Source: Candidatus Manganitrophaceae bacterium (GTDB taxonomy: Bacteria; Nitrospirota; Nitrospiria; SBBL01; JAADHI01). Taken from it: DNA of 33,089 nt. This document shows positions 6,274 through 27,169 of this stretch, piece after piece; position 1 is the first letter of the stretch, and every line of letters starts with the position of its first letter. The stretch covers positions 1-33,089 of the forward strand of contig JAADHI010000109.1 in NCBI GenBank assembly GCA_013151935.1. The letters run 5' to 3'. The notes beneath the pieces are model-generated. The model saw only the letters and a program-made list of their open reading frames with translations, was not told the DNA's origin and searched no databases. The translations under genes were made by a program, and so were the position numbers.

Positions 6274-7194
6274 CTATCGGTACTGAAGAAAACCCTCGTG
6301 GCTCGCTATTTTAGGGAAGTATTTGGCCGGTATATCTTCCACATCTGGATCTCTCAGAGACAAAGTAAAAACAGTCAGTGCCGTTGCTTCATCTTCAGTC
6401 AAACCCCAGTTAGGCATAATGGTTGGAGAAGTTCTGTCTTTTGGGTCAGGAGCATCCGGCTTACCAGGAACAATCTTTTCTGGATCAAGAAAATGCTCAA
6501 ATTCCCAAACACGGGTGATATGATCATCAGATTCAATCCTTGAAAAATCATGTACCAGGGTAAAAGCAAGTTCGGTTTTGCTGCCCATGTTAGAAATATC
6601 AGGCGCGAGTGCGGCATTTGTTCCAAATTGACGAATCGCATGACAAGCACCACAACCAAGCTCATAAGCCAAATCACGGCCTTTCATCAAGATGTCTGCT
6701 TCAGGCCAATAAACATCACGCGAATAAAGCTCATAATGACATTTCGTACAAGCCGTCTGGACATAAGCCCCGGATAAAGGCTGACGGTCAAGATGCTTCA
6801 CGACACCATGCGTCGCCGCAACCGTGACGGCTTGACCGTTACCTTCATGGCAAATGGTGCATCCAAATTTTTCAAAAGCATGTTTTGAAATATATCCGCC
6901 ATCCTTAAAGTTAGGGTGAGTTGTATAAGGTTGAGGCTCATTTTCAAATGCGGGATTTGCAATACCTGCATGACAAGTCGTACAACGATCCGCACGATTT
7001 AGTTTTTTGTCCCAGATTTGCGTGACTTTAATTGGAGAATTGGCAAGCTTAGGATCACCCACCACTTCAGCAAGTTTTTTATAATACGTGGCTTGATAGC
7101 CTTTCCACTCTGCTGTTTCCTCACGATAAACAAAAATACCCAGCTGAAGAACGATCAAAAAACCCGAAATTGCAAAAACAATATGTTTTACCAT
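6274..7194 (-). CDS. Membrane-anchored tetraheme cytochrome c
   Basis: N-terminal TM; CTTCH, CTICH, CTKCH, CGACH motifs. Confidence 0.88.
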   Translation of the reverse strand: MVKHIVFAISGFLIVLQLGIFVYREETAEWKGYQATYYKKLAEVVGDPKLANSPIKVTQIWDKKLNRADRCTTCHAGIANPAFENEPQPYTTHPNFKDGGYISKHAFEKFGCTICHEGNGQAVTVAATHGVVKHLDRQPLSGAYVQTACTKCHYELYSRDVYWPEADILMKGRDLAYELGCGACHAIRQFGTNAALAPDISNMGSKTELAFTLVHDFSRIESDDHITRVWEFEHFLDPEKIVPGKPDAPDPKDRTSPTIMPNWGLTEDEATALTVFTLSLRDPDVEDIPAKYFPKIASHEGFLQYR

Positions 7195-7428: not shown

Positions 7429-8295
7429 CTAGATTTTGAACCAAGGTGTAACGAGCACATACTTCACATCCGCCAATAATCGCACAAAAATTTTCATCGG
7501 GACACCCATCATCGAGATAAAAAAGAACATCACGAGATTGTATCGAACAAAACCTAACTTCCGATAAAAATCGCGGAAAAATAAAAAGGGAACCGTAAAT
7601 CCGATACCATAAAACGCGCCAAGAATTACCCAGGTGAGGAGATTCGCAGTGGTCACCGCATAACGACCAAGCGTTATAAGAGGAGACTCACTCAAGCCCA
7701 ATGAGCTTTGTAGAATAATTTCCAGGTCAATTAACTTAGCAGCACCAGCGGGCTGGTGAACATGCCAATCATCCCAGGGCCAGTACCACGACCAATCAAG
7801 TCCTCTAAAAAAAACACCCACAAAAATCAAGGCATACCAAAGCCCTAAACCGAAACTAAAAACCAACATCGAGAATTTACGCTCTGAAAACGTATAATAC
7901 CCTTTTCCTCGCGGATTAGGATCCAAATAAGGGATCAAAATAAGACCAACAAGCATCAAGGTGGGAAGTACCATTCCTGCCAACCAGGGATCGAAATACA
8001 CCAAGAGCTCTTGCAAACCCAAGAAATACCAGGGTGCCTTTGTTGGATTAGGCGTGGTATCTGCACTCGCCAATTCTTCCAAGGGGGCGGGAGCAACCAA
8101 AGAGAGAAATAAAATGACGGAAACGGCAACCATCATACAGATCAACTCAAGGTAAACAAGATTTGGCCAGACCAGGACGGTATTTTCTGGCGCAACTTTC
8201 CCGGCAGCGGTTTTCTTGATCATTGCTGAAAGCCGGCTAGACTTTGTTGTAACTTGCGCCGAATCGGAAACTTTTTCAGACATATCTTTCCTCAA
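7429..8295 (-). CDS. Cytochrome b C-terminal-domain (subunit IV-like) protein of a bc complex
   Basis: NPTKAPWYFLGLQELLVYFDPWLAGMVLPTLMLVGLILIPYLDPNPRGKGYY, the Qo PWYF-type motif of split cytochrome b; extra C-terminal TMs. Confidence 0.88.
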   Translation of the reverse strand: MRKDMSEKVSDSAQVTTKSSRLSAMIKKTAAGKVAPENTVLVWPNLVYLELICMMVAVSVILFLSLVAPAPLEELASADTTPNPTKAPWYFLGLQELLVYFDPWLAGMVLPTLMLVGLILIPYLDPNPRGKGYYTFSERKFSMLVFSFGLGLWYALIFVGVFFRGLDWSWYWPWDDWHVHQPAGAAKLIDLEIILQSSLGLSESPLITLGRYAVTTANLLTWVILGAFYGIGFTVPFLFFRDFYRKLGFVRYNLVMFFFISMMGVPMKIFVRLLADVKYVLVTPWFKI

Positions 8296-8308: not shown

Positions 8309-9079
8309 TTAAAGGGGCCCGGAAAAGCCGTCTTTTCTAATTCTCCAAAAATGGACAGCAATAAAAAGGGCCGTAATCAAAGGCAAAGCGAGACAATGCA
8401 AGACATAAAACCTAAGTAAGGCACTCTGTCCCACAATTGTACCTCCGAGCAACGCAAAGGCCATATCATTCTCAGGACCAAAACCCAGTTCAGGACCAAA
8501 GGGCCCTGCAGCACCAATAAATGGCGTCGCTTCCGCCATTTTACTGCCCACAGTAACAGCCCAAAGGGCCAACTGATCCCAAGGCAGCAAATATCCCGTC
8601 CAACTTAAAACCAAAGTCGTGACCAGAAGAATCACACCCACAACCCAGTTAAACTCTCTCGGCGGTTTATAAGAACCGGTCATAAACACACGTGTCATAT
8701 GCATCCAAACGGAAAAAACCATGGCATGCGCGGACCAACGATGCACCGCCCTAAAAAGACTGCCAAAGTAGATGACCGTCTCTAAATCTCGGATATCATT
8801 ATAGGCACGACGTGTATCGGGGACGTAATAGAACATCAAAATAACCCCGGTAATCGCAAGAAGGATAAAAAATAAAAAGGTCAAGCCCCCCAAACACCAG
8901 GTAAATTTAATTTTGAGTGCACCACGTCGAACTCGAACGGGGTGCAAATGCAAAATAATGTTGCTGAACATGACCAAAGCGCGGTTTCCATCTGTATCTG
9001 GATACCCATGTCTGAAGATGGACTTAAAGACCTGGGTCTTATTAACTGCCTCACGAATTTTTTGCAGTAAACTCAACAT
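8309..9079 (-). CDS. Cytochrome b N-terminal-domain (cytochrome b6-like) protein
   Basis: [67 protein letters not shown]; heme-ligating His and four-helix cyt b pattern. Confidence 0.92.
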
Positions 9080-9101: not shown

Positions 9102-9707
9102 CTATATCTTTAGGAAGTAAGGCTCAATTTCACGACCTAACTCTTCCACCATGAGCCCTTCCGGTGTTCCAACAGGGTCTGGATCTTGTCTCGTATTAAA
9201 ACTAACAACAATTTGACCATCAACCGGGTCAAGAGAAACGGCTGCACGCCACAAGGTTCGAGGCGCAGGGCCACCGACAACATTCCCTCGCGTGTCATAA
9301 ATACTGCCATGACACGGACATCTAAAAAGGCTTTGATCCTGAAAAAAGTTTGGGGTACAGCCCAAATGTCGACAAATCGCAATCATGACATACAATCCGC
9401 GTTCATTTCGCACAACCCAAATCTGACGCTCTTTTTTTAACTTGGTATCAACACCAATACCATACTCTTCAGGGGTGCCAATCTTAAAAATAGTCGGAGG
9501 TTCATAAAGAACCGAGGGCAGCATGTAACGTGCTGCGCCAACGCCAACCCCCCCCAGGGCTGTGAGTAGTCCTCCCCAGCCCACACCGAGACTCATTAAG
9601 GTAAAAAAACGTCTACGGCTGACATCTTCGTCTTGAGTGTTTCCCTTGTTATCTGCAGGTGCCATGCTCTCGTTGCTCCTAATTGTTACCGTGACAGACA
9701 CATCCAA
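9102..9707 (-). CDS. Rieske [2Fe-2S] iron-sulfur protein
   Basis: [40 protein letters not shown]-term [16 protein letters not shown] Tat-like anchor. Confidence 0.93.
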
Positions 9708-9708
9708 G

Positions 9709-10254
9709 TCATTTTTGCTTCCGACTTCGTTTTTCTTTACGTGTGATGGCCTTCTTTTTTTTCTTCATTTTCTTAACAGCAATATAAAACGCGACAAAGA
9801 CGAGAAAAAAAGACACCGAAGTTAAATAAACCCAGTCCTCTGTTTCTTTTGCATCCGCCCCAAAATCAACAGCATCGCTCCTGGTGCTTACAGCGTCTTC
9901 CGTATCAAAAAAAACTTTTATCTTTTTTTCTACATCTTTATAACGAACGATAATCTCATCACCCAGATTGTCATTATGAAGATGAAACAAGATCTCATAA
10001 TAACCACTCCCGTTCGTATTAACTTTTTTCTTCTCTCCTCCTTTATGTTCTAAATGAACCGTCGCATCTTCTATGGCAACACCGACCCCGTCTCTCACAT
10101 ATCCTGAAACAAGGTAACGGTGGTCTGCCTCATGTGTCGCTAACACTGACTCCGAAAAACCGAACAGAGAGAAGAAGAAGAAAGCGAAGATGAAAATATT
10201 TGTAAGTATTCCCGCCCATAGATCTCTAATTTTAATATCAAGATAAGAAGCCAC
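9709..10254 (-). CDS. TM-anchored protein with carboxypeptidase-regulatory-like beta-sandwich domain
   Basis: N-term signal/TM, YLVSGYVRDGVGVAIEDATVHLEHKGGEKKKVNTNGSGYYEILFHL (CarboxypepD_reg-like), C-term TM and Lys-rich tail. Confidence 0.6.
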   Translation of the reverse strand: MASYLDIKIRDLWAGILTNIFIFAFFFFSLFGFSESVLATHEADHRYLVSGYVRDGVGVAIEDATVHLEHKGGEKKKVNTNGSGYYEILFHLHNDNLGDEIIVRYKDVEKKIKVFFDTEDAVSTRSDAVDFGADAKETEDWVYLTSVSFFLVFVAFYIAVKKMKKKKKAITRKEKRSRKQK

Positions 10255-10257
10255 TGC

Positions 10258-11832
10258 TTAAGCACTGGACTTTTTATGATTTTTTCTCAAAATTCTAACA
10301 AGAATAAACTCTAATCCAAACACTAGAACGATCACAACGGGAGGATAATAGTAAACGCTCTTATCCTCTTCCGGTTCCATGAAAACGAAATACCATGGCG
10401 TGATCGATCTTTGTGAACCCGTCTCACCATTTGTGCCGTCCATGGCAAAAAAAGCAATCGGATAAAAAACACCCTTTTCAAATTGAATATCTTTTTCTTT
10501 ATCTGAAGTTTGCAAAGGCCGTTTGATGACCACACGATATTGTCCGTTCTTGTATATGCCTTTAGCAAAAATATCGGACTCGCCTTGCTCCACTTCACTA
10601 TTGTTCCAAATACCGTAGGCATTCGTCTCGAAAGAACGATTGTCTTCGGAGGTCCAGTTCCATAAATTCACGCCTAATTTCTCATCTCCCATGATGAAAT
10701 AGGGTTTTTTCACACCACCGGGTTGCAACTTTTCAGGAAATTGTATGGCGACCTGATCTGTAAATGTTTTTTTTGCTGCACTAGGCTTGCTCGCCTTGCT
10801 CTTACTTCGATCATCCCAAACCAGGAGGAAGGCAATTTCTGTTTCGTTAAAAATAGACTTGACCGTGATATCAGTCACGGAGGGAGTAAACAACCTCTTT
10901 TTAAAAGAAATTTGCCCCATCATCGGAAACCAGGCGGATGCTCCTTCCGCCCAGATGGGGTCATCTGGATCAAGTGGAATGGAACCTTCTATAGGACGTG
11001 CCTTAATCAACGAGCCTCTATCGGGTTTCTTTTCAGGGGAGAGGGATCGAATATAGTTCGCTAAATCCCAACTTTTTTCATTATCTAACTTTTCCGCAAA
11101 AGAGGGCATAGGCGTCCCGTTAATACCGGTGTTGACCCGCATATAAATGTCTTCTGCCTTGCCACCCCCTCTAAAAAGCCAGTTTTTGTTTAGGTTTCTT
11201 GGATAAACAGAATCTCCCCTGTGGTTTTTTAGAACAGAGGCAGTCGGTCCGTCTCCTCGACCTTCATTACCATGACAAAGGGTGCAACCCAGCGCCGTAA
11301 ATTGTTTTTTTCCTCTCTCCAGACTTTCCGGACTTGTCGGAACCACCGTCCCCACAGTAACAACAGGAGGTGAAGCCTCTTCTTTTTCCCACTTATCGGT
11401 AAAGGTTTTAATATATTTAATCACCTGCTTTGTCTTTTTCTTGGAAAGAATATCCGCCCAGGCAGGCATCCCGGTTCCGGGAAGACCAAGCGTAATCGCC
11501 TTAAAAAGGTCATCATCTGTAGGGAGCGTTCCCCGTGGGGTCGTCCGGTACTTATACTCCGCTTTTTTAAAACTTCTTGGTTTTGGCTGGAAGCGATCTG
11601 CTGCGGGTCCGTCTCCATCGCCTTCTATGCCATGACAGGAGATACACAGTTTTTCATAAATCATTTTTCCGGCAGCAAGATCATCCGTCAGAGGTTCATC
11701 TTTCTCAGCCGTCCCAGCCGTTTGCTCTTCATCAGCCAAAAGCAAAGGAGCCCAGCCGAATAAAAGCACCAACATTAAGAACAGAAAGGGAAAAACTCTT
11801 ACCCACCTTTTAATTAACAGACTATTCAGCAT
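10258..11832 (-). CDS. Diheme cytochrome c with C-terminal ethylbenzene-dehydrogenase-like (EB_dh) heme-binding domain and TM anchor
   Basis: CISCHG and CTLCHG; then DDPIWAEGASAWFPMMGQ...ETEIAFLLVWDDRSKSK...DQVAIQFPEK...YFIMGDEKLGVNLWNWTSED... resembling EB_dh/NxrC-type gamma subunits; C-term TM. Confidence 0.75.
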   Translation of the reverse strand: MLNSLLIKRWVRVFPFLFLMLVLLFGWAPLLLADEEQTAGTAEKDEPLTDDLAAGKMIYEKLCISCHGIEGDGDGPAADRFQPKPRSFKKAEYKYRTTPRGTLPTDDDLFKAITLGLPGTGMPAWADILSKKKTKQVIKYIKTFTDKWEKEEASPPVVTVGTVVPTSPESLERGKKQFTALGCTLCHGNEGRGDGPTASVLKNHRGDSVYPRNLNKNWLFRGGGKAEDIYMRVNTGINGTPMPSFAEKLDNEKSWDLANYIRSLSPEKKPDRGSLIKARPIEGSIPLDPDDPIWAEGASAWFPMMGQISFKKRLFTPSVTDITVKSIFNETEIAFLLVWDDRSKSKASKPSAAKKTFTDQVAIQFPEKLQPGGVKKPYFIMGDEKLGVNLWNWTSEDNRSFETNAYGIWNNSEVEQGESDIFAKGIYKNGQYRVVIKRPLQTSDKEKDIQFEKGVFYPIAFFAMDGTNGETGSQRSITPWYFVFMEPEEDKSVYYYPPVVIVLVFGLEFILVRILRKNHKKSSA

Positions 11833-12568
11833 CTAATTCCCAAGTCCTTGGCTTCCATCCGGTATAGTCATACAGAAACATAACGGCTTTCCATCGCTCT
11901 TCTTCGGACAAGATCAATTCCCATCTGGGCATCGCAGAATCCCATGGCGTGGCCTCGTCAGGAAGCCCGATGCCGCCCGTCGTGACCCGCCAGAAGACAA
12001 AAGATTCCTGAAGCATTGAGATGGTTGTCGAATCTGCAAAATTAGCAGGCTTGACGTTCAAAGCCTCCGCAAATAAACCCTTTCCATCCAGCTTATCACC
12101 ATGACAAAAAACGCAGTTTCGATAATAAATGTCTCTTCCTTCCTGAAGATATGTTTCACGATTTTCTTCATCATCTCCGTAAGGATTTACAAAACCAGCA
12201 GCCGATGCCGGTGGGGCAGGATGGATAACACGCGGCGGAAAAGGCGGTTCAAAATTCGGCTGAACGGTCTTGTAGGTACGAAAACCCATGAACAGAGGAA
12301 TCATAACAAAAACAGCAATCCGGCTCATCTTCCGAAAGGAATTATCAGCCTCATCTCCACGAATAAACGTCACAATGGGGAGAAAAAATTGCTGGTAGTC
12401 ATCTTCAAAAATGGAAACATAGATCAGAGTAGAGATCGTGACCAGAATCATGTACATCGCAAGCACACTATAAGGCAGTGGACTCGTGAAAAGGGGAAAG
12501 CCAAACCGTAGAAAAAGGAAGAAACCCAGTACACATGCGACCGCCTTGGCGATGAGAGGAATTTTCAC
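11822..12568 (-). CDS. Membrane-bound monoheme cytochrome c (three N-terminal TMs); likely GTG start at 12568
   Basis: CVFCHGDKLDGKG; ORF-track start at 12631 would overlap the upstream gene by ~60 nt, whereas GTG 12566-12568 directly follows its TAA stop: (V)KIPLIAKAVACVLGFFLFLRFGF... Confidence 0.78.
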   Translation of the reverse strand: MKIPLIAKAVACVLGFFLFLRFGFPLFTSPLPYSVLAMYMILVTISTLIYVSIFEDDYQQFFLPIVTFIRGDEADNSFRKMSRIAVFVMIPLFMGFRTYKTVQPNFEPPFPPRVIHPAPPASAAGFVNPYGDDEENRETYLQEGRDIYYRNCVFCHGDKLDGKGLFAEALNVKPANFADSTTISMLQESFVFWRVTTGGIGLPDEATPWDSAMPRWELILSEEERWKAVMFLYDYTGWKPRTWELDAE

Positions 12569-12569
12569 G

Positions 12570-13418
12570 TTAAACACCCCCTGCTTCGGTATCACCGTCT
12601 TCGGCATCACCTTCTTCTTGCAAAACTTCATTTTGCAGAGAGGCCTCTTTCAGTGTGCTGACGTATAGCGAAATAGCAAGCGCATCCGCTTCATTTAAGT
12701 CCAGGTTGGGCATCCTCGTTTTGGGCACAAATGATTGTGGATTCATAATCCAACGAAAAATAAATTGCGGCTGAAGCATGAAGCCAGCCGCTGACAAATT
12801 CGGCCCCAGAGTCCCTCCTTCTCCATTGACCCTGTGGCAGGCATTACAGCCCACTTCGGCGTAGATTTCTTCTCCTACAGCAACCTGCTCATCAAAAGCT
12901 TCTTCATCCGGGGCCAGGGATTCCAGCAGTTCATCAAACTTTTTCTCTCGCACCATGGGATACCGAACGCGCTTTGTATTAAACAGGGCTTCTTTAGAAT
13001 CAGGTTTTGTAAAAACAATCTCATTCTCTTCATTTGGGTGAAGCGTACGAACATAGGCGACCAGAGACCAGAGTTCTTCTTCAGAAAAAACCTTTCCCCA
13101 GACCGGCATCCCTCCAGAGAGATCGACACCGTAACCACCCAGCTGCAGTACCTCAAAGATTTCATCGTTTGACAGCTTAGCCATATAATCTTCGTCGCCA
13201 TCGGTCAGATCCCTTGGCACAGGATCCATGTTCTTTGCATTGTACCCCGATCCATTTCCAGTGTCTCCATGACAGGGAGCACAGTAACGACTGTAGGCCT
13301 TGTGGCCTTTGGCGACATATTTGTCCTCACAGCCCACGGCAACAAGCATGAATGCCATCAAGAACGGAACAACAAACAACTTCCCTTTTCGTTTCATCAA
13401 CACCAATCTACCTATCAC
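12570..13418 (-). CDS. Diheme cytochrome c lipoprotein
   Basis: Lipobox-like MLVAVGC; CAPCH and CNACH. Confidence 0.85.
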   Translation of the reverse strand: MIGRLVLMKRKGKLFVVPFLMAFMLVAVGCEDKYVAKGHKAYSRYCAPCHGDTGNGSGYNAKNMDPVPRDLTDGDEDYMAKLSNDEIFEVLQLGGYGVDLSGGMPVWGKVFSEEELWSLVAYVRTLHPNEENEIVFTKPDSKEALFNTKRVRYPMVREKKFDELLESLAPDEEAFDEQVAVGEEIYAEVGCNACHRVNGEGGTLGPNLSAAGFMLQPQFIFRWIMNPQSFVPKTRMPNLDLNEADALAISLYVSTLKEASLQNEVLQEEGDAEDGDTEAGGV

Positions 13419-15903
13419 CTGCTTTTTCAGCCATCCTGACGTGATTCTTTTCCTTGAAGGATTCCCATTGCATCATCGCACGTTCTTCAAGGGCTTCCTC
13501 AGACTCTTCTTCAATTAACTCAGCCGGTTTAAGTTCCGGAATCACTTCTAACAACTCTGGAGTCAATTCCGACTCTCCGGGTTTCGGGGCCAACTCCTCC
13601 GGCATCACCGTCACTTTTCCGCCGTTGCTTTGAACGAATGCAACCACGGCAAGCATCTCCTGCTCTGAAAGTCCGATAGGCGCTTTGTTGATGGCAGGCA
13701 TTTGGGCCGAATACTCAACCGGTTTTACAGTATCGAAATCCAGCTTAATATAAGCCGCAGGTTCTATCATCGCTTCATAGATGAATTCACGTGTCAAGCG
13801 CGCTCCCACTCCAGAGAGATTTGGACAGCGTCCATGCCCCTCTCCAATGGCGTGGCACAAGGCACACTGGCCTTTGGAAAAGAAAATCTCCTGTCCAATC
13901 TGAACAACATCAGCTGACGTCTTAATCTTCGTCAGATCCAAGGCTTTCTTTTCCGGGGGTAGGCCAACCTTTTGCGGGACCTGATATCCCACATAGGCGA
14001 AGGCAAATAAAAACACGCCGACGACAGCAACAATCTTCAGAATAACGAAACGGGGTCCCTTGTTATCCGTAGTAACCTCTTGCCGGTGTTCCCCGAAAAG
14101 ATCAACAAGGTACATGAAGACAGAAGGAAGAAAGAAATAGCGTGTGGAAAAACGATTGTGGCGTATCGTGTGTGAAGTCCAAAAAACAACGCCCAACAAA
14201 GTAACGAAGATGATGGTATTCACTACAAAGAGAAAAGAAGCAACGCCCAGGGTCGGAGTATAGCCGTAAGCGGAGGTATCCTCCAGCACACCATAGATAT
14301 GCCAGTGTACACGCGATGCGGAACGGGCATACCCCATCAGGGACATGGTTAAAACGACGAAGACCGCATTGATGACCAATGCGTATTGAGAGCGTTTCGG
14401 CATGACGCCCCACTTCATCTCATGCGTCAGTTTTGCCGATTTGAGAGAAAGGGCCGTCAGGGGTGTGATCGTGGCCAGCACAAAGATAACGGCAAGCACC
14501 TGGGCGACGGAAAGCACATTCACTCGATAGACCGACGGCACAAAATAGCCATAAATGCCCAGCCAGATAATGACAACAACTGCCGCAGTGATTAAGAGGA
14601 CTGTGAATATATTGGCAGCCTTCCCCCACTTTACAGTGATGACTTTGTCTGCTCGCCAATACAGAATGAAACAGATGAAAGTCGTAATAATCATCAGGTT
14701 TACAACGGTTAACTTGGCCGACATGACCCCGAAAACTCCGACAAGGGGATGGTGAGCTCCCCCCATTGCCAGGGTTTCTGAAACACTCGCAACAATGGTT
14801 TTAGGGGTCAGCCACACAGAGAAAGAACCAACCAGAACCACCATCATAAGCAGAATTGGCACCTTGTACTTTTTTGCAGAGTGGGTTCGATAGGCGATGC
14901 CCTGCCAGAAATAGTAGTTTGACCCGACAAAGAGGACTCCAATGAGCACCGCTTGGAGGATAAACAACCAGGAAAGGATCCCTCCCATGAGGGTAATGCC
15001 CATCTGCTGGTTATATTCGTAAACTTCCCGCATCAGCCAATAACCGGCAAAAGGCATGGGGAGCAAGCCGAACACACCGATAAAGTTCCCGGTATAACCC
15101 ATCCAGTCGTAATGCTCCCGCTCTTCCTGTGTCTTCGCCCCTAAATAGGCAACTCCGGCATAAGCCCCGCAGATATAGCCTCCCAGGACAATATTTCCGA
15201 CGATCCGGTGGATATTCACCGGCCACCATGTCGGGTTGTTAATCGCCGTCCAAGCCCTCTCCCATGGCCCTAATTCCGGATTCAAGACCACCGGGCTGGC
15301 TTGAAAGGAGAGGAAGCCACTCGGCAAACACATGATGACAAAGCCGAAGATATTGAGCATCATCCCCCAGAAGAGATGCAGCGCTTTACGGTTTTGCCAT
15401 TTTTCCCACTTGGACCAGTAATAGTAAATGGAGGCCGTCTCCCCCAGGAAAAGGACAAGGTACACATAGTAGGCCGGCTTAAAAATACCCGCCATGACAC
15501 TCATCAATTCAGGGTAGAAAACGAGCAAGGCAAAAAGAAAAAGAATTCCGAGTGTGGCCGTCGTCGCGAAACAGGCGACAATCAGGTCTGTAAATTCCTT
15601 GGCCAGACGATCATATCTTTTCTCTCCTGTCGTAATGCCGATCACCTCGACAATGACGACAAATATGGGCACCCCCAATACAAAGGCGCCAAACAAGATA
15701 TGGGTCTGAGATAAAATCCAGATCAGATTACGGCTGCCAATCCAAGGAATATCTCGGTAACTTACAGCAGAACCGGTTTCGGCAAAGGCAGCACCCGAAG
15801 GCAGTAAGCATAGCGCCATAAGGGAAAAAACGGCCCAGAAAACGGGTTGTTTGATCACTTTAATTAAATGTATGATACGCCCCCCTTCATCATTTTCTAT
15901 CAA
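13408..15903 (-). CDS. Cytochrome bd-like oxidase subunit I superfamily protein (expanded TM region) fused to C-terminal monoheme cytochrome c
   Basis: N-term CydA-like core (LIWILSQTHILFGAFVLGVPIFVVIVEVIG...CLPSGFLSFQASPVVLNP...NPTWWPVNIHRIVGNIVLGGYICGAYAGVAYL), many TMs, C-term QCALCHAIGEGHGRCPNLSGVG; no canonical GRQPW Q-loop motif seen. Confidence 0.85.
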   Translation of the reverse strand: MIENDEGGRIIHLIKVIKQPVFWAVFSLMALCLLPSGAAFAETGSAVSYRDIPWIGSRNLIWILSQTHILFGAFVLGVPIFVVIVEVIGITTGEKRYDRLAKEFTDLIVACFATTATLGILFLFALLVFYPELMSVMAGIFKPAYYVYLVLFLGETASIYYYWSKWEKWQNRKALHLFWGMMLNIFGFVIMCLPSGFLSFQASPVVLNPELGPWERAWTAINNPTWWPVNIHRIVGNIVLGGYICGAYAGVAYLGAKTQEEREHYDWMGYTGNFIGVFGLLPMPFAGYWLMREVYEYNQQMGITLMGGILSWLFILQAVLIGVLFVGSNYYFWQGIAYRTHSAKKYKVPILLMMVVLVGSFSVWLTPKTIVASVSETLAMGGAHHPLVGVFGVMSAKLTVVNLMIITTFICFILYWRADKVITVKWGKAANIFTVLLITAAVVVIIWLGIYGYFVPSVYRVNVLSVAQVLAVIFVLATITPLTALSLKSAKLTHEMKWGVMPKRSQYALVINAVFVVLTMSLMGYARSASRVHWHIYGVLEDTSAYGYTPTLGVASFLFVVNTIIFVTLLGVVFWTSHTIRHNRFSTRYFFLPSVFMYLVDLFGEHRQEVTTDNKGPRFVILKIVAVVGVFLFAFAYVGYQVPQKVGLPPEKKALDLTKIKTSADVVQIGQEIFFSKGQCALCHAIGEGHGRCPNLSGVGARLTREFIYEAMIEPAAYIKLDFDTVKPVEYSAQMPAINKAPIGLSEQEMLAVVAFVQSNGGKVTVMPEELAPKPGESELTPELLEVIPELKPAELIEEESEEALEERAMMQWESFKEKNHVRMAEKAGDR

Positions 15904-15913
15904 CTGATAGTTC

Positions 15914-17449
15914 TCATGTCACATGTCTCAAGAATGCGAGGCGCTTGACCAACCACATAAAGACGAGACTACCCTTTCGATAGATATAGTCCGTATCCAG
16001 GCTGATATAATTTTCCGGCGTCAATTTTTTCAGGAAAAGCATAAAGACCAAGAGCGTAAAGCCCATGTACTGAAAGGCTTTGACCAGATGTCCGGCAGTG
16101 TAAGGCTGATAGTCCATGGGATGCGGGAACATTCCGTAGAGCAAGCCCGGAAAAAGGCCAAAAAAGATACAAATAGACGCAAGGATTCGCATCCCCCACA
16201 ACATATTTGCTGGCGGATCCGTCACGACAATCTTCCGATCCTTAGCCCGATCTTCCCCGAGAAAAACCATATAGATCAGCTTGAGCGGATGGAGCCAGGT
16301 ACCGCAGGCACCAAAGACGAGCATCAAGATGACCCAGCCCTGACCGATTTCAGCCGCCGCAGAAACAACAATCGACTTACTCACAAAGCCTACAAGCGGC
16401 GGCACCCCCGCAATGGCGAAGCCCCCAATCACAAATAGAACAAAGGTCCAGGGCATACTTTTATACAGGGCACCCAACTCGGATTGCTTTCGACCTCCCG
16501 TCATGTGAGTGACTGAGCTGATGCCCATCATGAGCAGGGCCTTATAAATAATATTCGTGAAGGCAAGCGCAACCGCGCCGTTAATCCCCAGCGCCGTCCC
16601 GATACCAATTCCGGTGACCATATAGCCATTTTGACTGATCAGGTGGTAACACCATACCCGCTGGCAATTATTTTCGTTGACCGCATACATGACACCATAC
16701 ACAGCCATAATCGCCCCCAAGACAATCAGGATCGGTGTTCCGGGAAAACCCCGGATCAAGGCATAAATGGCAGTCTTCGTTGTAAAGACACTCAAGAAAA
16801 TCACCCCGGTCAGGGTGGCCTCAGGATAGGCATCTGCCAACCAGGCATGAAGCGGCGGAACGGCCGCATTGATCAGGAAGCCCATCAGTATGAGCGTCGG
16901 CCCCAGGCCCATTTCCGGCATGGCATCAAAAGCGATGCCGCCACCACTCCCGACATGAATCACGATGCCGCCAAAGAGAAGCAGACCCCCGGTAATATGA
17001 ACCAGGAGATAACGCATCCCCGCAGCATTTGAACCCTTTTCCCCTCTCAACCAAATCAAAAACACAGACGAGAAGGAAGCAATCTCCCAGAACAGAAAAA
17101 AGGAAAAGAAATCTCCCGCAAAAATGGCACCTACGGCACTACCCACATAGATCAAGGCGGAAATATGCTCGCGACAATCCTTGACATGCAGGGCAAAGAC
17201 CAGGCTTGCAAAGGCACTCACCATAAAGACAGCCCCAAACCCAAGGCTCAACTTATCAACGCGACCGAAAACCAGCTCCTGTCCGGCAAAAGAAACGACA
17301 CCATGAATGCCCTGCGAAGCGGAGAGCATTGCAAGCAAAGCCATCACTGGGATAGACAGCAATAGAGCAGAGCGGGCTTTTCCTTTCAGAAAAGGTAGAA
17401 TCGCAGCGCCCAGATAGAAGAACAGGGAGGGTTGTACCCACTCAATCAT
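15914..17449 (-). CDS. Proton-conducting membrane transporter subunit (NuoL/M/N - MrpD family)
   Basis: FFSFFLFWEIASFSSVFLIWLRGEKGSNAAGMRYLLVHITGG...LINAAVPPLHAWLADAYPEATLTGVIFLSVFTTKTAIYAL; conserved Glu/Lys antiporter pattern. Confidence 0.88.
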   Translation of the reverse strand: MIEWVQPSLFFYLGAAILPFLKGKARSALLLSIPVMALLAMLSASQGIHGVVSFAGQELVFGRVDKLSLGFGAVFMVSAFASLVFALHVKDCREHISALIYVGSAVGAIFAGDFFSFFLFWEIASFSSVFLIWLRGEKGSNAAGMRYLLVHITGGLLLFGGIVIHVGSGGGIAFDAMPEMGLGPTLILMGFLINAAVPPLHAWLADAYPEATLTGVIFLSVFTTKTAIYALIRGFPGTPILIVLGAIMAVYGVMYAVNENNCQRVWCYHLISQNGYMVTGIGIGTALGINGAVALAFTNIIYKALLMMGISSVTHMTGGRKQSELGALYKSMPWTFVLFVIGGFAIAGVPPLVGFVSKSIVVSAAAEIGQGWVILMLVFGACGTWLHPLKLIYMVFLGEDRAKDRKIVVTDPPANMLWGMRILASICIFFGLFPGLLYGMFPHPMDYQPYTAGHLVKAFQYMGFTLLVFMLFLKKLTPENYISLDTDYIYRKGSLVFMWLVKRLAFLRHVT

Positions 17450-17699
17450 AATAATCCTCTGATTTCATCAGCCAGGCATGCCCGATGGCCTTCGAGAGAA
17501 GGATCATCACGACCGTCGAAATAAATCCATAAAAAGACCACCACCCCGGGATTTTGTCCCATATAAAGTTCACAGCGTCATGAGGGACAAAGAAATCACT
17601 GATCACGACAAGACCAAGAAAGACATAAAAACCTTTTTTTGCCTTCTTGCAAAAAACCTCATCTTCCCCGTATTTTCTAAGAAAATCGCCTAGATTCAT
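17442..17699 (-). CDS. Small membrane protein (85 aa) between the two MrpD-like genes
   Basis: Overlaps both neighbours by 4-8 nt; two hydrophobic segments (GFYVFLGLVVISDFFV; WWSFYGFISTVVMILLSKAI). Confidence 0.75.
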   Translation of the reverse strand: MNLGDFLRKYGEDEVFCKKAKKGFYVFLGLVVISDFFVPHDAVNFIWDKIPGWWSFYGFISTVVMILLSKAIGHAWLMKSEDYYD

Positions 17700-19198
17700 C
17701 CTATCACCTGTTTGGTCAGATCAAGAAGAAGGTCTGGAAAAATACCCAGCAGAATGGAAGTCGCCGCCGTGATGCACAAAGGAATGACACAAAACATCGG
17801 TTCCTTAAAAGAGGACTCCGCTCCCAACACAACGCCGTCCTTATCGCCTGCAAGCGCAAGGGTGAGTTCTTCATCCGGCACCTTAAAAAAAGCCCGATGC
17901 ACAATGGGCAAAAAATAAATTGCATTCAAAAGTCCACTGACCAGCAGCACAAAAACAATAGGCACCTGATTCGCTTCAATCGCGCCCAGAGATAAAAACC
18001 ACTTGCTCAAGAAGCCGCCGGAAGGAGGCACCCCGATCATACTCAGGGTTGCAATGGCAAAGGCCCCCATCGTCCAGGGCATCTTTCGGCCTATGCCGTT
18101 TAACTGAGACACATGGGTCTTTTTTGTCGCCACATAGATCGAACCCGCGCAAAAGAAGAGTGTAATTTTGGCAATCGCGTGATTTGCGATGTGCAAAATA
18201 CCGCCAGTCAGTCCACTGGACGTCAAGAGCACCCCGCCCAAGATCATGTAAGAAAGCTGACTCACTGTGGAATAGGCAATACGCTCCTTGAGGTTGTCCC
18301 TCGACATGGCATAGACCGAGGCCATGATAATAGTAAAGCTTGCAAGGTAGACCGCAATCGACCCGATATCCAAGCTCTCCAACAAGTCCACACCAAAGGT
18401 ATTCAGTACAACCCGTAAGATGCAGAAAGCCCCGGTATTCACAACGGCAACCGCATGCAGAAGCGCACTCACCGGTGTAGGCGCCACCATGGAAGCGGGC
18501 AACCAGGCCGAAAAAGGCATGAGCGCCGCTTTGGCAATACCGAAGAGGTAGAGAAAAAAGATGATCATCAAAGTGGTTGATTCCACGTCGGCAGGAAGAA
18601 TGCCAGTGGCCGTAAAATCGAGTGAGCCTGAGTAGTAATAGGTCAAAAGCATGGCGACAGCCATAAACAGCTTCGAGGTTGCCAACAAATAGAAAAGATA
18701 CTTATTTCCCCCGGCCCAGGCCTCCTTTGTTTCATGATGCACAACCAGGGGATAGGTAAAGAAGGTAATCAATTCATAAAAAAGAAAGAGCGTAAACCAG
18801 TTATTAGAAAAGGCCGCGCCCATTGTTGCAGATAGGGTGACCGCAAAACAGAAATAAAAGCGTGTTTGAGAATGCTCTTTGAGGCCACGCATATAACCGA
18901 TGGAATAGAGGGTTGTTAAGATCCAGGTAAAAGCCGCGACGAGCGCAAAGAGAAGCCCCAAACCATCCACTCGAAACCCAATCGGAACCGTCGGCCAGAA
19001 ATCAAAGAGAACGTAATGAAGCGTTTTCCCGTCAAGTACCGCAGGAATCATACTCAGAACAACAAAAAACATCAGAATCCCTGCTACAAGCGAGCAGGCC
19101 TCCCGAACATTTTTATTCTTCCGAGTTGCAACAATGAATACCCCCCCGATGAAGGGGATCATTACAGCTAAGAGGGGCTTTACGGATTCAAGTTCCAT
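17696..19198 (-). CDS. Second proton-conducting membrane transporter subunit (NuoM/MrpD-like)
   Basis: FRVDGLGLLFALVAAFTWILTTLYSIGYM...NWFTLFLFYELITFFTYPLVVHHETKEAWAGGNKYL...MPFSAWLPASMVAPTPVSALLHAVAVVNTG. Confidence 0.9.
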   Translation of the reverse strand: MELESVKPLLAVMIPFIGGVFIVATRKNKNVREACSLVAGILMFFVVLSMIPAVLDGKTLHYVLFDFWPTVPIGFRVDGLGLLFALVAAFTWILTTLYSIGYMRGLKEHSQTRFYFCFAVTLSATMGAAFSNNWFTLFLFYELITFFTYPLVVHHETKEAWAGGNKYLFYLLATSKLFMAVAMLLTYYYSGSLDFTATGILPADVESTTLMIIFFLYLFGIAKAALMPFSAWLPASMVAPTPVSALLHAVAVVNTGAFCILRVVLNTFGVDLLESLDIGSIAVYLASFTIIMASVYAMSRDNLKERIAYSTVSQLSYMILGGVLLTSSGLTGGILHIANHAIAKITLFFCAGSIYVATKKTHVSQLNGIGRKMPWTMGAFAIATLSMIGVPPSGGFLSKWFLSLGAIEANQVPIVFVLLVSGLLNAIYFLPIVHRAFFKVPDEELTLALAGDKDGVVLGAESSFKEPMFCVIPLCITAATSILLGIFPDLLLDLTKQVIG

Positions 19199-19288: not shown

Positions 19289-19813
19289 CTATTTCTCTAC
19301 GGTATTTTCAATTTCCTTGTGCTCATGTACCGCTGGTTTGTTGCCATGAGACCAGGTATGTTCATAAGCAATAACCTTCCAAATTTCCTCTTCGCTCAAT
19401 TCTTTGCCCCAGGCTGGCATCGATGTTTTCTTCACTCCTTCAGAAGTCCGCCAGAACCAGTAACTATCAGAGAGACGATTCATTCTCTTCACTGAACGAA
19501 AATCTTTGGCCCCTCTTTTTTTTGGGCGATCTTTTTTTTCATTGATCCCATGACATGTGGCACAACCGTCCTTTGCCACCTTCTTTTTTCTTTTGTATAC
19601 ATATTCCAATTGTCGCGTTTCAAATATTTTTTTGCCTTCCGCGATGATTTTCGTATCAGTCCACCACCCACTCGGCATATGTTTATCCGCAAATGCCTTG
19701 GGAACTGGCTTTAATGGCTTATCATCATCCTTAGCCGCCTGAGCAAACACTGGAAACAAGAATAGACTTAAGACCACAAAACTTAAGATATAGAGTGAAA
19801 ATTTACCGCGCAT
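19289..19813 (-). CDS. Monoheme cytochrome c, periplasmic
   Basis: Signal peptide; CATCHGINEKKDRPKKRG; SMPAWGKELSEEEIWKVIAYEHT cytochrome c C-terminal motif. Confidence 0.85.
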   Translation of the reverse strand: MRGKFSLYILSFVVLSLFLFPVFAQAAKDDDKPLKPVPKAFADKHMPSGWWTDTKIIAEGKKIFETRQLEYVYKRKKKVAKDGCATCHGINEKKDRPKKRGAKDFRSVKRMNRLSDSYWFWRTSEGVKKTSMPAWGKELSEEEIWKVIAYEHTWSHGNKPAVHEHKEIENTVEK

Positions 19814-19874: not shown

Positions 19875-21014
19875 TCATTCTGCACCAAGCTGACTATTAA
19901 ACGGATCAATTAAATGACATCCCTTACAATTTTTTGTTTCGAGAATCTTCTTTCCTTTTGCAAGTTTCTCTGGATCAGCAGGTGCTTCACCGGAAACAGT
20001 CACAGCAAGAGAGGCATCACCCGCTAAACTATAGATGTAGGAGAGAATTGAACGAATTTGGTCATCTGGCATATTAAAATTTGGCATAGGGGAATCAGGA
20101 CGGATTCGCTGAGGGTTTTTAATCCAATAAAACATCCACTCAGGACGAATTCGTTCGGCTGCATAGGAGAGATCTGGGCCGACAATACCCCCTTCATCTG
20201 AACCCCGCGTGTGACAACCGTCGCAGGCGTAGTCTTCCTCAAAAAGAATTTGACCTTTTTCGATTTCGGCAGGGTCGGAGGAATCCCAGCCCATCAAAAC
20301 GCTCGGATGAATGCCGTCATCCTTTAGGGTCATCAAGTACTCCACGAGCGCATCAACCTCAGCATCTGTAAAATAAAAATTGGGCATTTTCGCTTTCGAT
20401 AAGGGCATATAGCCGATGGGGCGCAAACGCTCCGGCTGTTTCATAAAATCCGCAACCCATTCTCGATTTAGCTTGCTCCCTTCATGACCAATATTTGGAC
20501 CGATAGGACGCAGTAAGTTTTTCTCTTTAGAGTGGCAAGCGACACAGCCTTCGTCTCCCTGTTTTTCTAAATCTGCAAGACGAACAGCAGCAGCCTCCTC
20601 AGCGCCATTCGCTGCAGACAAAGTTCTAATGTATGCAACAAGGCTCCACATTTGGTTCTCAGAAAACAAGGCACCCCACGGAGGCATATAATAGGAGATA
20701 TCAATGGCAGCCCCTCCCCCATCAATCACTTCATAGATTTCTTCATCGTCTAATTTATCAATGCTCTCCGAAGTTAAATCAGCAGGTTCCACATCACCGA
20801 GACGATCCGCATTTACGCCATTACCCGTCCCCGTGACGCCATGACAAACAGCACAGTAATGTTTAAAGAGGTGTTTCCCCACTTTTGCGTCGGGTGCATC
20901 CGAGGCCTCGACTTGCAGGACGAAGGGAGAAAGCGAAAAACCGACAAGGATGAGGAAAAAGAATGAAAACAGAACAAGATTCAAACGAACACTTTTACTT
21001 TCGAACAAATTCAA
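19875..21014 (-). CDS. Tetraheme cytochrome c (tandem mono-heme domains), exported
   Basis: CAVCH, CVACH, CDGCH, CKGCH; N-term hydrophobic signal segment. Confidence 0.88.
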   Translation of the reverse strand: MNLFESKSVRLNLVLFSFFFLILVGFSLSPFVLQVEASDAPDAKVGKHLFKHYCAVCHGVTGTGNGVNADRLGDVEPADLTSESIDKLDDEEIYEVIDGGGAAIDISYYMPPWGALFSENQMWSLVAYIRTLSAANGAEEAAAVRLADLEKQGDEGCVACHSKEKNLLRPIGPNIGHEGSKLNREWVADFMKQPERLRPIGYMPLSKAKMPNFYFTDAEVDALVEYLMTLKDDGIHPSVLMGWDSSDPAEIEKGQILFEEDYACDGCHTRGSDEGGIVGPDLSYAAERIRPEWMFYWIKNPQRIRPDSPMPNFNMPDDQIRSILSYIYSLAGDASLAVTVSGEAPADPEKLAKGKKILETKNCKGCHLIDPFNSQLGAE

Positions 21015-24373: not shown

Positions 24374-27169
24374 TTATTCTAAACAGACTTCTTTCGAATG
24401 GGCCGCAATTTTCTTGCGACAAAAATTCCGTAAACGCACCACGTCCCTCCAATCCTTACCTTCAGGATAAATCGCTTCCGAAAAAATCAGAGTCACGGGC
24501 ATCCGGCGCGGTAAAAAGGTTCCACCTCTTAAAAATTCCCGTGTCCCTTGTAAGGTCACGGGGATAATGGGTATTTCTGTTTCGATGGATGCCTTAAAAG
24601 CACCCAACTTAAAAGGTCGTATACCTGCCGTTGCCCGAAAGGTGCCTTCTGGGAAAATCAACACAGAGGCCCCTGACTTAAGGAGGGCTTCAATTTTTTG
24701 CGTTTCCGAAACCCCTTTACTCACATTCGTGCGATCTACTGTAATATGTTTACCTTTGATCAGAACGGTTCTTAAAAAAGGAACCTTTAAAAGTTCTTTT
24801 TTGCTCACAAAATGTAGGTCTTCCGGCAAAGTCGCGATCAAAAAAGTAACATCCAAGTAGCTCGCATGATTTGCCACCCAAATCATCGGACCTTTATTTT
24901 CAGACCCTTCGAAACCTTCAATACGAGGCAATGCACAGGCTAGACGCAAAAAAAGTTTCGCACCTTGTTTTAAGATAAACCCAGTATATTTTGCAGGTAA
25001 GATCAAAACCAGCAGCCAAGCAGGAAACAGCAAGGCCCCCAAAATGGTCACCAGATAGGCACCATAAAATGCACGCCCCATGGTCTTAAACCCTCGTAAT
25101 GCCCACGATTTAAACCACGTCAGACACAAGCTTAAAAATTGAAGTTGAACATGACGGCGGCCTGAGGTGAGACGGCCTTTCAAATAGGCCTCGCGACAGG
25201 CGGAGCGGGCAATTTTTCCACTGGAGGTTTTGGGCACACTTCCCGGTGGCACAAGGCAAATCAAATCGGCGGGCACACCGACGGCATTTAGAATGCGCTC
25301 ATTCACCATTGCGTTTAAAGTTGCTTTTCCCGCCTCCCGCGTCTCTCGCGTTTCGATCACGACAACCAGCTTTTCCGTCCCCAAGGCGGGATCCGGAATA
25401 CCAACAGCAGCAACACAGCCTTTACGCACACCGGGCACTTCACCCGCGACCGCCTCAATTTCATGGGGATGCAGATTTCTCCCTCCCTTTATAATGAGGT
25501 CTTTTTTTCTGCCCGTAATAAAAAGCTCGCCATCGGCCTTGTAGCCCAAGTCCCCCGGAACCAACCAATCCCCATGAAAAAGAGAAGCGGTCGCTTGTGC
25601 ATTTTGATAATAACCCGAAGTACAAGAAGGGCCGCGAAACTCAATCTGCCCTTCCACACGCTCCCCTAAGATTTGGCCTTCATCGTCCACAATGCGTAAT
25701 TCATGCTCCGGCAGGGCGAGTCCACAAGATACAAATTCGAGCGTATTCGCTTCTGAAGGCGAGGCCGGAAAAGCCTCACGTGTGCGCTGAAAACGATCAC
25801 GTGAAATTTTATCTGTACGCGGAACACGGCCCAATGGCGGGAAACTCAGCCCCACAGAAGCCTCGGCCATGCCATAAACCGGCAGATGGGTTTCAGGGCG
25901 AAAACCGTAAGGGGCAAACCGTTTGCTAAAGGCCCTGAGTGTTTCAGGATTCACAGGCTCTGCCCCATTTAGGGCGATGCGCCACCGGCTGAGATCCAGT
26001 CCTTCGATGCTTTCATCTCTAATTTTTTTTGCACAGATTTCATAGGCAAAATTGGGCGCGGCAGAAAGCGTACCCCCGTGACGATGCAAGGTCCAAAGCC
26101 ATTTTTCAGGGCGACTTAAAAAAGCAAAGGGCGGGAGAATCGCAATGGGAATGCCATGGATCAATGAAAAGAGCCACGAACCGATCAAACCCATGTCATG
26201 ATAAAGCGGCAACCAACTCACCCCCACATCACCCGCCGTAATCGCCATGGCTTTTTTCATACAACGAATATTCGCCAGCAGATTTTCGTGTGTGAGAAGA
26301 ACCCCTTTAGGGCTACCCGTACTGCCGGAGGTATATTGAATCAATCCGGCATCCCCTTCTCGCGCCAAAACAAGTGATGCACTAGAATCTGCGCCCAGAA
26401 CCATGAGTGTTTCGGGTATCAGTACAGCCCGTAAGCCCTGAAGACGCGGTCTTAAAAGACGGGCCAGTTTTTCGACCCGCTGGAAAGTAATCAGATAAAC
26501 CGCACCTGCATTTCTTAGAATCTCTTCCTGGCGCGCAGCATATTCCTCTATTTGGTTGGGGCGAAAAGGTGGATAAACCGGGACCGGCACACCTCCCGCT
26601 AAAAGAATGCCACAAAAAGTAAAAAAAAAGTCCTTGCCCGTGGGCAACATGATGGCAACCGTTTCCCCTCGTTCGATGCCTTTTTTAATCAGTCCACGGG
26701 CAATGGCCTCGGCACCGATGAGCAAATCGCGGTAAGTGAGCATTTCTTCTTCCCCGGCATCCGTCGTCAGATAGATATGGGGTCGCTCGGGATCAGCCTC
26801 CGCATGACGCATCAATCCTTCTGAGAGTGTGCGTGCGGGACGAATGATCCGCGCAGCCTTTTTCAAACCCTGCAAACGTTCCACCCCCTGTCTTTTTTCG
26901 GAGGGACTGGCTTTTTGCACAATCATTGCGAGTGCGCGAGGGGTCGTAGCCTCTGCAATCGTCGCGTCAGGCAAAGAAACAGAAAACTCGGATTCGATGC
27001 GAAGCAGGAGTTCAACACGCTCAAGACTGCCCAGCCCCAAATCCCGCTCAAATGATGCGGTTGGAGAGAGCAAAGAAAGCACCCGCTGAGACCCATTTTC
27101 GAGCAAGAGCAGACGGATCACTTCAAGGATTTCGACTTCAATCTGAGTTTGATCGACAATACGATTCAT
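24374..27169 (-). CDS. Three-domain fusion: acyl carrier protein + AMP-dependent acyl ligase + PlsC-type acyltransferase
   Basis: ACP motif DLGLGSLERVELLLRIE; ligase YTSGSTGSPKGVLLTHENL...GDLGYKADGELFITGRKKDLIIKGGRNLHP; PlsC NHASYLDVTFL...FPEGTFRATAGIRPFKLGAF. Confidence 0.93.
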   Translation of the reverse strand: MNRIVDQTQIEVEILEVIRLLLLENGSQRVLSLLSPTASFERDLGLGSLERVELLLRIESEFSVSLPDATIAEATTPRALAMIVQKASPSEKRQGVERLQGLKKAARIIRPARTLSEGLMRHAEADPERPHIYLTTDAGEEEMLTYRDLLIGAEAIARGLIKKGIERGETVAIMLPTGKDFFFTFCGILLAGGVPVPVYPPFRPNQIEEYAARQEEILRNAGAVYLITFQRVEKLARLLRPRLQGLRAVLIPETLMVLGADSSASLVLAREGDAGLIQYTSGSTGSPKGVLLTHENLLANIRCMKKAMAITAGDVGVSWLPLYHDMGLIGSWLFSLIHGIPIAILPPFAFLSRPEKWLWTLHRHGGTLSAAPNFAYEICAKKIRDESIEGLDLSRWRIALNGAEPVNPETLRAFSKRFAPYGFRPETHLPVYGMAEASVGLSFPPLGRVPRTDKISRDRFQRTREAFPASPSEANTLEFVSCGLALPEHELRIVDDEGQILGERVEGQIEFRGPSCTSGYYQNAQATASLFHGDWLVPGDLGYKADGELFITGRKKDLIIKGGRNLHPHEIEAVAGEVPGVRKGCVAAVGIPDPALGTEKLVVVIETRETREAGKATLNAMVNERILNAVGVPADLICLVPPGSVPKTSSGKIARSACREAYLKGRLTSGRRHVQLQFLSLCLTWFKSWALRGFKTMGRAFYGAYLVTILGALLFPAWLLVLILPAKYTGFILKQGAKLFLRLACALPRIEGFEGSENKGPMIWVANHASYLDVTFLIATLPEDLHFVSKKELLKVPFLRTVLIKGKHITVDRTNVSKGVSETQKIEALLKSGASVLIFPEGTFRATAGIRPFKLGAFKASIETEIPIIPVTLQGTREFLRGGTFLPRRMPVTLIFSEAIYPEGKDWRDVVRLRNFCRKKIAAHSKEVCLE

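Follow-up and report, generated by a model that had tools for sequence, protein, structure and literature searches.

A bd-like protein of the OR-N family is fused to cytochrome c and encoded with two MrpD-like antiporter subunits in Nitrospiria

The window, by which we mean the whole analysed stretch of 33,089 nucleotides, contains an 831-aa open reading frame at 13408-15903 on the minus strand, surrounded by genes for c-type cytochromes, MrpD-like antiporter subunits and a Rieske/cytochrome b complex. A preliminary description of this DNA had placed the frame correctly and left out its strand; a plus-strand gene at these positions was rejected, as that reading yields no gene. The start codon is uncertain, being TTG here and ATG about 8 codons further in in the closest homolog. 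Chance can be ruled out as the source of the frame because an ortholog is conserved in 150 of the 396 sampled Nitrospirota genomes (E <= 1e-165), all in the class Nitrospiria among the matches listed. In order of transcription, the cluster reads:

19875..21014, minus: tetraheme cytochrome c, 379 aa (conserved synteny)
19289..19813, minus: monoheme cytochrome c, 174 aa (conserved synteny)
17696..19198, minus: MrpD-like antiporter subunit b, 500 aa (profile/sequence match)
15914..17449, minus: MrpD-like antiporter subunit a, 511 aa, without the C-terminal extension of complex I paralogs (profile/sequence match, length comparison)
13408..15903, minus: bd-like oxidase subunit (OR-N type) fused to cytochrome c, 831 aa (ORF, Pfam, fold matches, orthologs)
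12570..13418, minus: diheme cytochrome c, 282 aa (Pfam, synteny)
11822..12631, minus: monoheme membrane cytochrome c, 269 aa (Pfam, synteny)
10258..11832, minus: NxrC-like heme b/c protein with two heme c and an ethylbenzene-dehydrogenase-type heme b domain (Pfam, synteny)
9709..10254, minus: small, carboxypeptidase-regulatory-like membrane protein, conserved in the cluster (Pfam, synteny)
9102..9707, minus: Rieske iron-sulfur protein (Pfam)
8309..9079, minus: cytochrome b6-type subunit (Pfam)
7429..8295, minus: cytochrome b C-terminal or subunit IV-like protein (weak match below cut-off; position after cytochrome b6)
6274..7194, minus: tetraheme cytochrome c, 306 aa, conserved cluster end (synteny)

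From N- to C-terminus, the 831-aa protein consists of an apparent signal peptide, a 13-helix CydA-like membrane part, one extra helix and a cytochrome c domain. It had been described as beginning like cytochrome bd subunit I and as carrying a CALCH cytochrome c domain after the membrane part, and both statements hold: Pfam Cyt_bd_oxida_I (PF01654) matches aa 64-299 (E 4.5e-16) and Cytochrom_C (PF00034) matches aa 668-759 (E 2e-7). Structure prediction, which had been proposed as a check, agrees. An AlphaFold2 model (mean pLDDT 58, membrane core about 80, alignment depth only 18 sequences) has 13 helices in the CydA-like part, or 14 counting the helix that precedes cytochrome c, with extra helices in place of the Q-loop. 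A PDB fold search returned ten matches with E <0.001, every one of them a CydA chain of a bd oxidase, at TM-scores of 0.41-0.56 (by target length). From the signal peptide, the number of helices and the basic loops that precede helices 4, 12 and 14, we infer that the N-terminus and the cytochrome c domain lie in the periplasm. The parts and residues of the protein considered below are:

14155..15732, minus: CydA-like membrane part, aa 58-583, 13 predicted helices (AlphaFold2 model; best PDB folds are CydA chains)
15700..15702, minus: His68, equivalent of E. coli CydA His19, invariant in 59 homologs (alignment)
15460..15462, minus: Tyr148, invariant, at or adjoining the place of CydA Glu99 (alignment)
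15439..15441, minus: Glu155, equivalent of CydA Glu107 (E in 56 of 59 homologs)
15208..15210, minus: His232, invariant, TM5 start, candidate for CydA His186 with the register 5 residues off (alignment)
14800..14802, minus: Lys368, codon AAA, His in 58 of 59 homologs (alignment)
14749..14751, minus: His385 of the motif HHP, invariant in orthologs, in the loop before TM9 (alignment)
14335..14337, minus: Met523, invariant in 59 homologs, in the helix matching the CydA Glu445 helix (alignment)
14299..14301, minus: His535 in SxRVHWH, the remnant of GRQPW, invariant in 59 homologs (alignment)
13609..13923, minus: cytochrome c domain, probably periplasmic (Pfam PF00034)
13852..13866, minus: CALCH heme c motif, aa 680-684 (sequence)

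Conservation of the CydA heme ligands, which the preliminary description had singled out for scrutiny, was assessed by aligning the protein to E. coli CydA and 59 non-redundant homologs, and the outcome was mixed. The equivalents of His19 and Glu107 are kept, as His68 (59/59) and Glu155 (56/59). Glu99, Met393 and Glu445 are lost: Tyr148 takes or adjoins the place of the first, Met393 is aligned with Ala, and Glu445 has no acidic counterpart, residues 503-535 being free of Asp and Glu, with the invariant Met523 in the matching helix. His186 is aligned with Asn237, and the invariant His232, which lies five positions before Asn237 where that helix begins, is a candidate replacement judged from the alignment. 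In E. coli, His186 and Met393 are the ligands of heme b558, with Glu99 and Glu445 acting at hemes d and b595 (PMC6853902). Retention is thus clear for a single canonical heme ligand, and the remaining ones must be replaced or lost; the ligand set is in this respect as unconventional as had been suspected. Position 368 is His in all homologs except one with Ala, and the 58 with His include one that is 87% identical to the protein described here, which has Lys. The Lys codon is two changes away from a His codon, and Lys368 means either that a possible ligand has truly been lost or that this single metagenome assembly contains an error. Conserved His384-His385, His533 and His535 are found in two loops that would be periplasmic in the predicted topology.

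The motif GRQPW, which had been reported as lacking, is indeed absent; at the aligned place stands SxRVHWH, in which only the R and W are left. Its designation as a Q-loop motif was less exact, because GRQPW occupies residues 447-451 of E. coli CydA, near Glu445 and outside the Q-loop, and so is strictly no Q-loop motif. An intact Q-loop was not found in the alignment.

CydB (PF02322) is missing from the window, as had been noted, and also from the rest of the genome (91% complete) and from the seven other genomes of its family, f1 (eight genomes, six of them 95-99% complete). No cydB adjoins any ortholog locus examined. Heme-copper oxidase subunit I (PF00115) likewise has no match in any of the eight f1 genomes. 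Bd-like proteins are thus the sole oxidases of these classes in the family, and any oxygen respiration there must use them or another enzyme class. Two more bd-like genes on contig C164 of the same genome resemble the second bd-like pair of Nitrospira-type genomes; the window cluster holds one only. Outside the family, heme-copper subunit I is carried by f5 genomes (the group of Ca. Manganitrophus, by gene order) and CydB by some Nitrospiria genomes (f6). Type II DMSO-reductase alpha subunits were not found over the cut-off in the family, but this cut-off was reached in none of the 21 genomes overall, which makes the negative a poor guide to whether nitrite oxidoreductase is encoded.

Two identities were rejected on these grounds. 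A heme-copper oxidase is contradicted by the lack of both a PF00115 match and a fold match. Canonical CydA of CydAB shares the fold of the N-terminal half and the His19 and Glu107 equivalents, but the present protein lacks the Q-loop, GRQPW, CydB, Glu99, Met393 and Glu445 and carries additional helices as well as a cytochrome c domain.

The protein is instead a member of an already described family, the OR-N bd-like oxidases, and its gene cluster matches TO_2 of Ca. Manganitrophus. The preliminary description missed this family; the protein is no uncatalogued oddity. OR-N proteins have been described from Nitrospirota that oxidise nitrite or manganese, and terminal oxidase function is ascribed to them in Nitrospira, in Nitrospina and in Ca. 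Manganitrophus, which oxidises manganese. In this family, the N-terminal heme ligands are kept, helices replace the Q-loop, and all quinol-binding residues are missing (PMC3578206). OR-N CydAA' is said to oxidise cytochrome c, not quinol, and was biochemically uncharacterised as of PMC10839748 and PMC12342949. The features of the family recur here: a CydA-like N-terminal part with His68, no Q-loop or quinol residues, about 14 helices, and no CydB in any of the eight genomes. Like OR-N proteins of Nitrospirota and Nitrospinota (Nitrospira bd-like_2/CydAA'), the protein has a suggested cytochrome c donor and Rieske/cytochrome b, NxrC-like and c-type cytochrome neighbours. It differs in that its cytochrome c is fused rather than separate, in the two MrpD-like genes, and in having one bd-like gene in the cluster, whereas OR-N theory holds the enzyme to be composed of two CydA-type subunits (CydAA').

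The Nitrospira-type ortholog is about 58% identical (57-60%) and is located beside complex III. Its surroundings comprise, in order, a small membrane protein, cytochrome c, bd-like_1, cytochrome c, Rieske protein, cytochrome b, a further membrane protein, the bd-like ortholog, a separate cytochrome c, a monoheme c, an NxrC-like protein and a diheme c. Matched by gene order and description, this region fits the bd-like_2/complex III region of PMC6606698, in which N. moscoviensis has complex III_1 with bd-like_1, bd-like_2 (the proposed terminal oxidase) and alt_nxrC_1. In most Nitrospiria, the cytochrome c is encoded by a separate adjacent gene; since it is fused here, the donor and the membrane part appear to belong together.

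TO_2 of Ca. Manganitrophaceae was described as a bd-like protein with two MrpD-like subunits and periplasmic and membrane cytochrome b (PMC9040806), all of which have counterparts in the window, the periplasmic cytochrome b being NxrC-like. The gene order in Ca. Manganitrophus GAC4 is the same apart from one cytochrome, the diheme cytochrome gene being positioned differently; the bd-like proteins are 57-65% identical, and Lys368 is a further difference. In the GAC4 record (L046 8005-12416), two frames stand in place of the bd-like gene and two in place of one MrpD-like gene, probably owing to sequencing errors. Ten related genomes of the order keep the cluster order mostly or wholly; the exceptions are one contig that ends early, the diheme cytochrome being elsewhere in f5, and four genomes with a more distant second MrpD in the same place.

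In each of the two MrpD-like subunits, TM5 retains its Glu and TM12 its Lys, and a central Lys is present as well. Their closest known counterparts are the MrpD-like subunits of complex I (rhizobial green complex I, Complex_I_3), and paralogs about 52-60% identical to them lie in complex I-like clusters of the same genome. One such cluster (contig C113; L101 1415-9536) has five antiporter-type subunits, a hallmark of Complex_I_3 in Ca. Manganitrophaceae (PMC9040806), which makes it probable that the organism belongs to or adjoins that family. MrpD-like a measures 506-574 aa beside bd-like genes and 564-765 aa beside complex I genes, and thus mostly lacks the C-terminal extension in the former setting. 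The copy in the window, in contrast to those of complex I, has no such extension and adjoins the bd-like gene rather than nuo genes. At L056 11798-13327, the MrpD-like a that adjoins a bd-like gene falls together with a copy from complex I, which hints that it was replaced in this cluster.

TO_2 has been reported as confined to Ca. Manganitrophaceae (PMC9040806). We found the fused bd-like/c gene with adjoining MrpD-like b and a in three Nitrospiria genomes outside the order as well (G194, G031 and G036), where the MrpD pair is on the other side of the gene (L087 10518-16324; L062 4114-9946; L065 10040-15905). Second copies, consisting of MrpD-MrpD-fusion without bc complex or NxrC-like gene, occur in two genomes (L049 9544-14960; L051 6512-12183), which suggests that the MrpD-like pair and the bd-like/c fusion form the functional core. 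Both the link to MrpD beyond the family of the original report and the minimal unit without bc complex are new. Cytochrome c is fused in every MrpD-linked copy examined in full, and two fused copies (L060, L064) have no MrpD gene nearby. In a tree restricted to Nitrospirota homologs, a constraint joining all MrpD-linked bd-like proteins was not rejected (AU p = 0.47), and the data are compatible with either one or two origins of the link.

We consider it probable that the protein is the catalytic subunit of an OR-N-type bd-like enzyme with a fused cytochrome c donor, and that it reduces O2 within a Rieske/cytochrome b-cytochrome-MrpD assembly. Such an assembly would comprise the Rieske/cytochrome b complex, several c-type cytochromes, the NxrC-like heme b/c protein and two MrpD-like subunits, in the TO_2 arrangement. 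The bc complex or donors in the periplasm would deliver electrons to the cytochrome c domain on the periplasmic side, and the electrons would pass on to b-type hemes near the periplasmic face, for which His68, His232, His535 and Met523 are candidate ligands, and from there to O2. Ion transport through the MrpD-like subunits may be powered by this reaction, or an ion gradient may act through them to push electrons back to quinone. That cytochrome c is a likelier partner than quinol, as proposed from the outset, is supported by the absence of Q-loop, GRQPW and CydB, by the fusion itself, and by the cytochrome c specificity ascribed to OR-N. Because Glu99, Met393 and Glu445 are missing, a bd-type diheme site for O2 reduction remains putative. 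Other observations weigh against this reading: the real oxidase could be encoded by the two bd-like genes of contig C164, an almost universal His has given way to Lys368, and the cluster has one of the two CydA-type subunits that OR-N theory expects.

The foremost alternative, to which we assign a minor share of the probability, is a non-oxidase module that shuttles electrons between cytochrome c in the periplasm and either the quinone pool or the bc complex, with reverse transport driven by an ion gradient through the MrpD-like subunits. It is kept alive by the missing oxygen-site glutamates, and fits the minimal MrpD-MrpD-bd-like units, the quinone-reducing or bifurcating roles proposed for bd-like complexes (PMC3578206, PMC9040806) and the location of relatives of bd-like genes next to NXR in anaerobic anammox bacteria (PMC3578206). 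It is countered by the invariant or nearly invariant His19 and Glu107 equivalents, by genomes otherwise devoid of CydAB and heme-copper oxidases, and by the lack of any recognisable known quinone site. It is quite improbable, in our judgement, that the CydA-like fold hosts a CuB-type site with heme-copper-like cytochrome c oxidase chemistry, an idea formerly raised for bd-like_2 of Nitrospira. For bd-like_2, putative copper-binding sites have been cited (PMC6606698), and the conserved His384-His385, His533 and His535 could be read in this way, but they are in loops and not in membrane helices, His368 is Lys here, and sequence and fold match no heme-copper oxidase. Scarcely credible is a quinol oxidase of canonical type whose quinol site has diverged and whose CydB is lost or unlinked. 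The CydA homology of the N-terminal half speaks for it; it is largely contradicted by the alignment, by the lack of Q-loop, GRQPW and CydB in genome and family, and by the family-wide loss of quinol-binding residues (PMC3578206).

The fused cytochrome c offers a convenient single-chain test of bd-like proteins as cytochrome c oxidases, and the association with a pair of antiporter subunits is relevant to energy conservation by bd-like enzymes. The f1 genomes appear to be dependent on the fusion and its paralogs. Going further, and as a speculation that we hold only tentatively, the fusion and the two MrpD-like subunits may be one machine, a redox-driven ion pump or a gradient-driven device for reverse electron transfer, portable across Nitrospiria with or without a bc complex and serving as a main terminal oxidase of these organisms.

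Elsewhere in the window, 24374-27169 on the minus strand encodes a 931-aa fusion of an acyl carrier domain, an AMP-binding acyl ligase and an acyltransferase, adjoining a diacylglycerol kinase gene.
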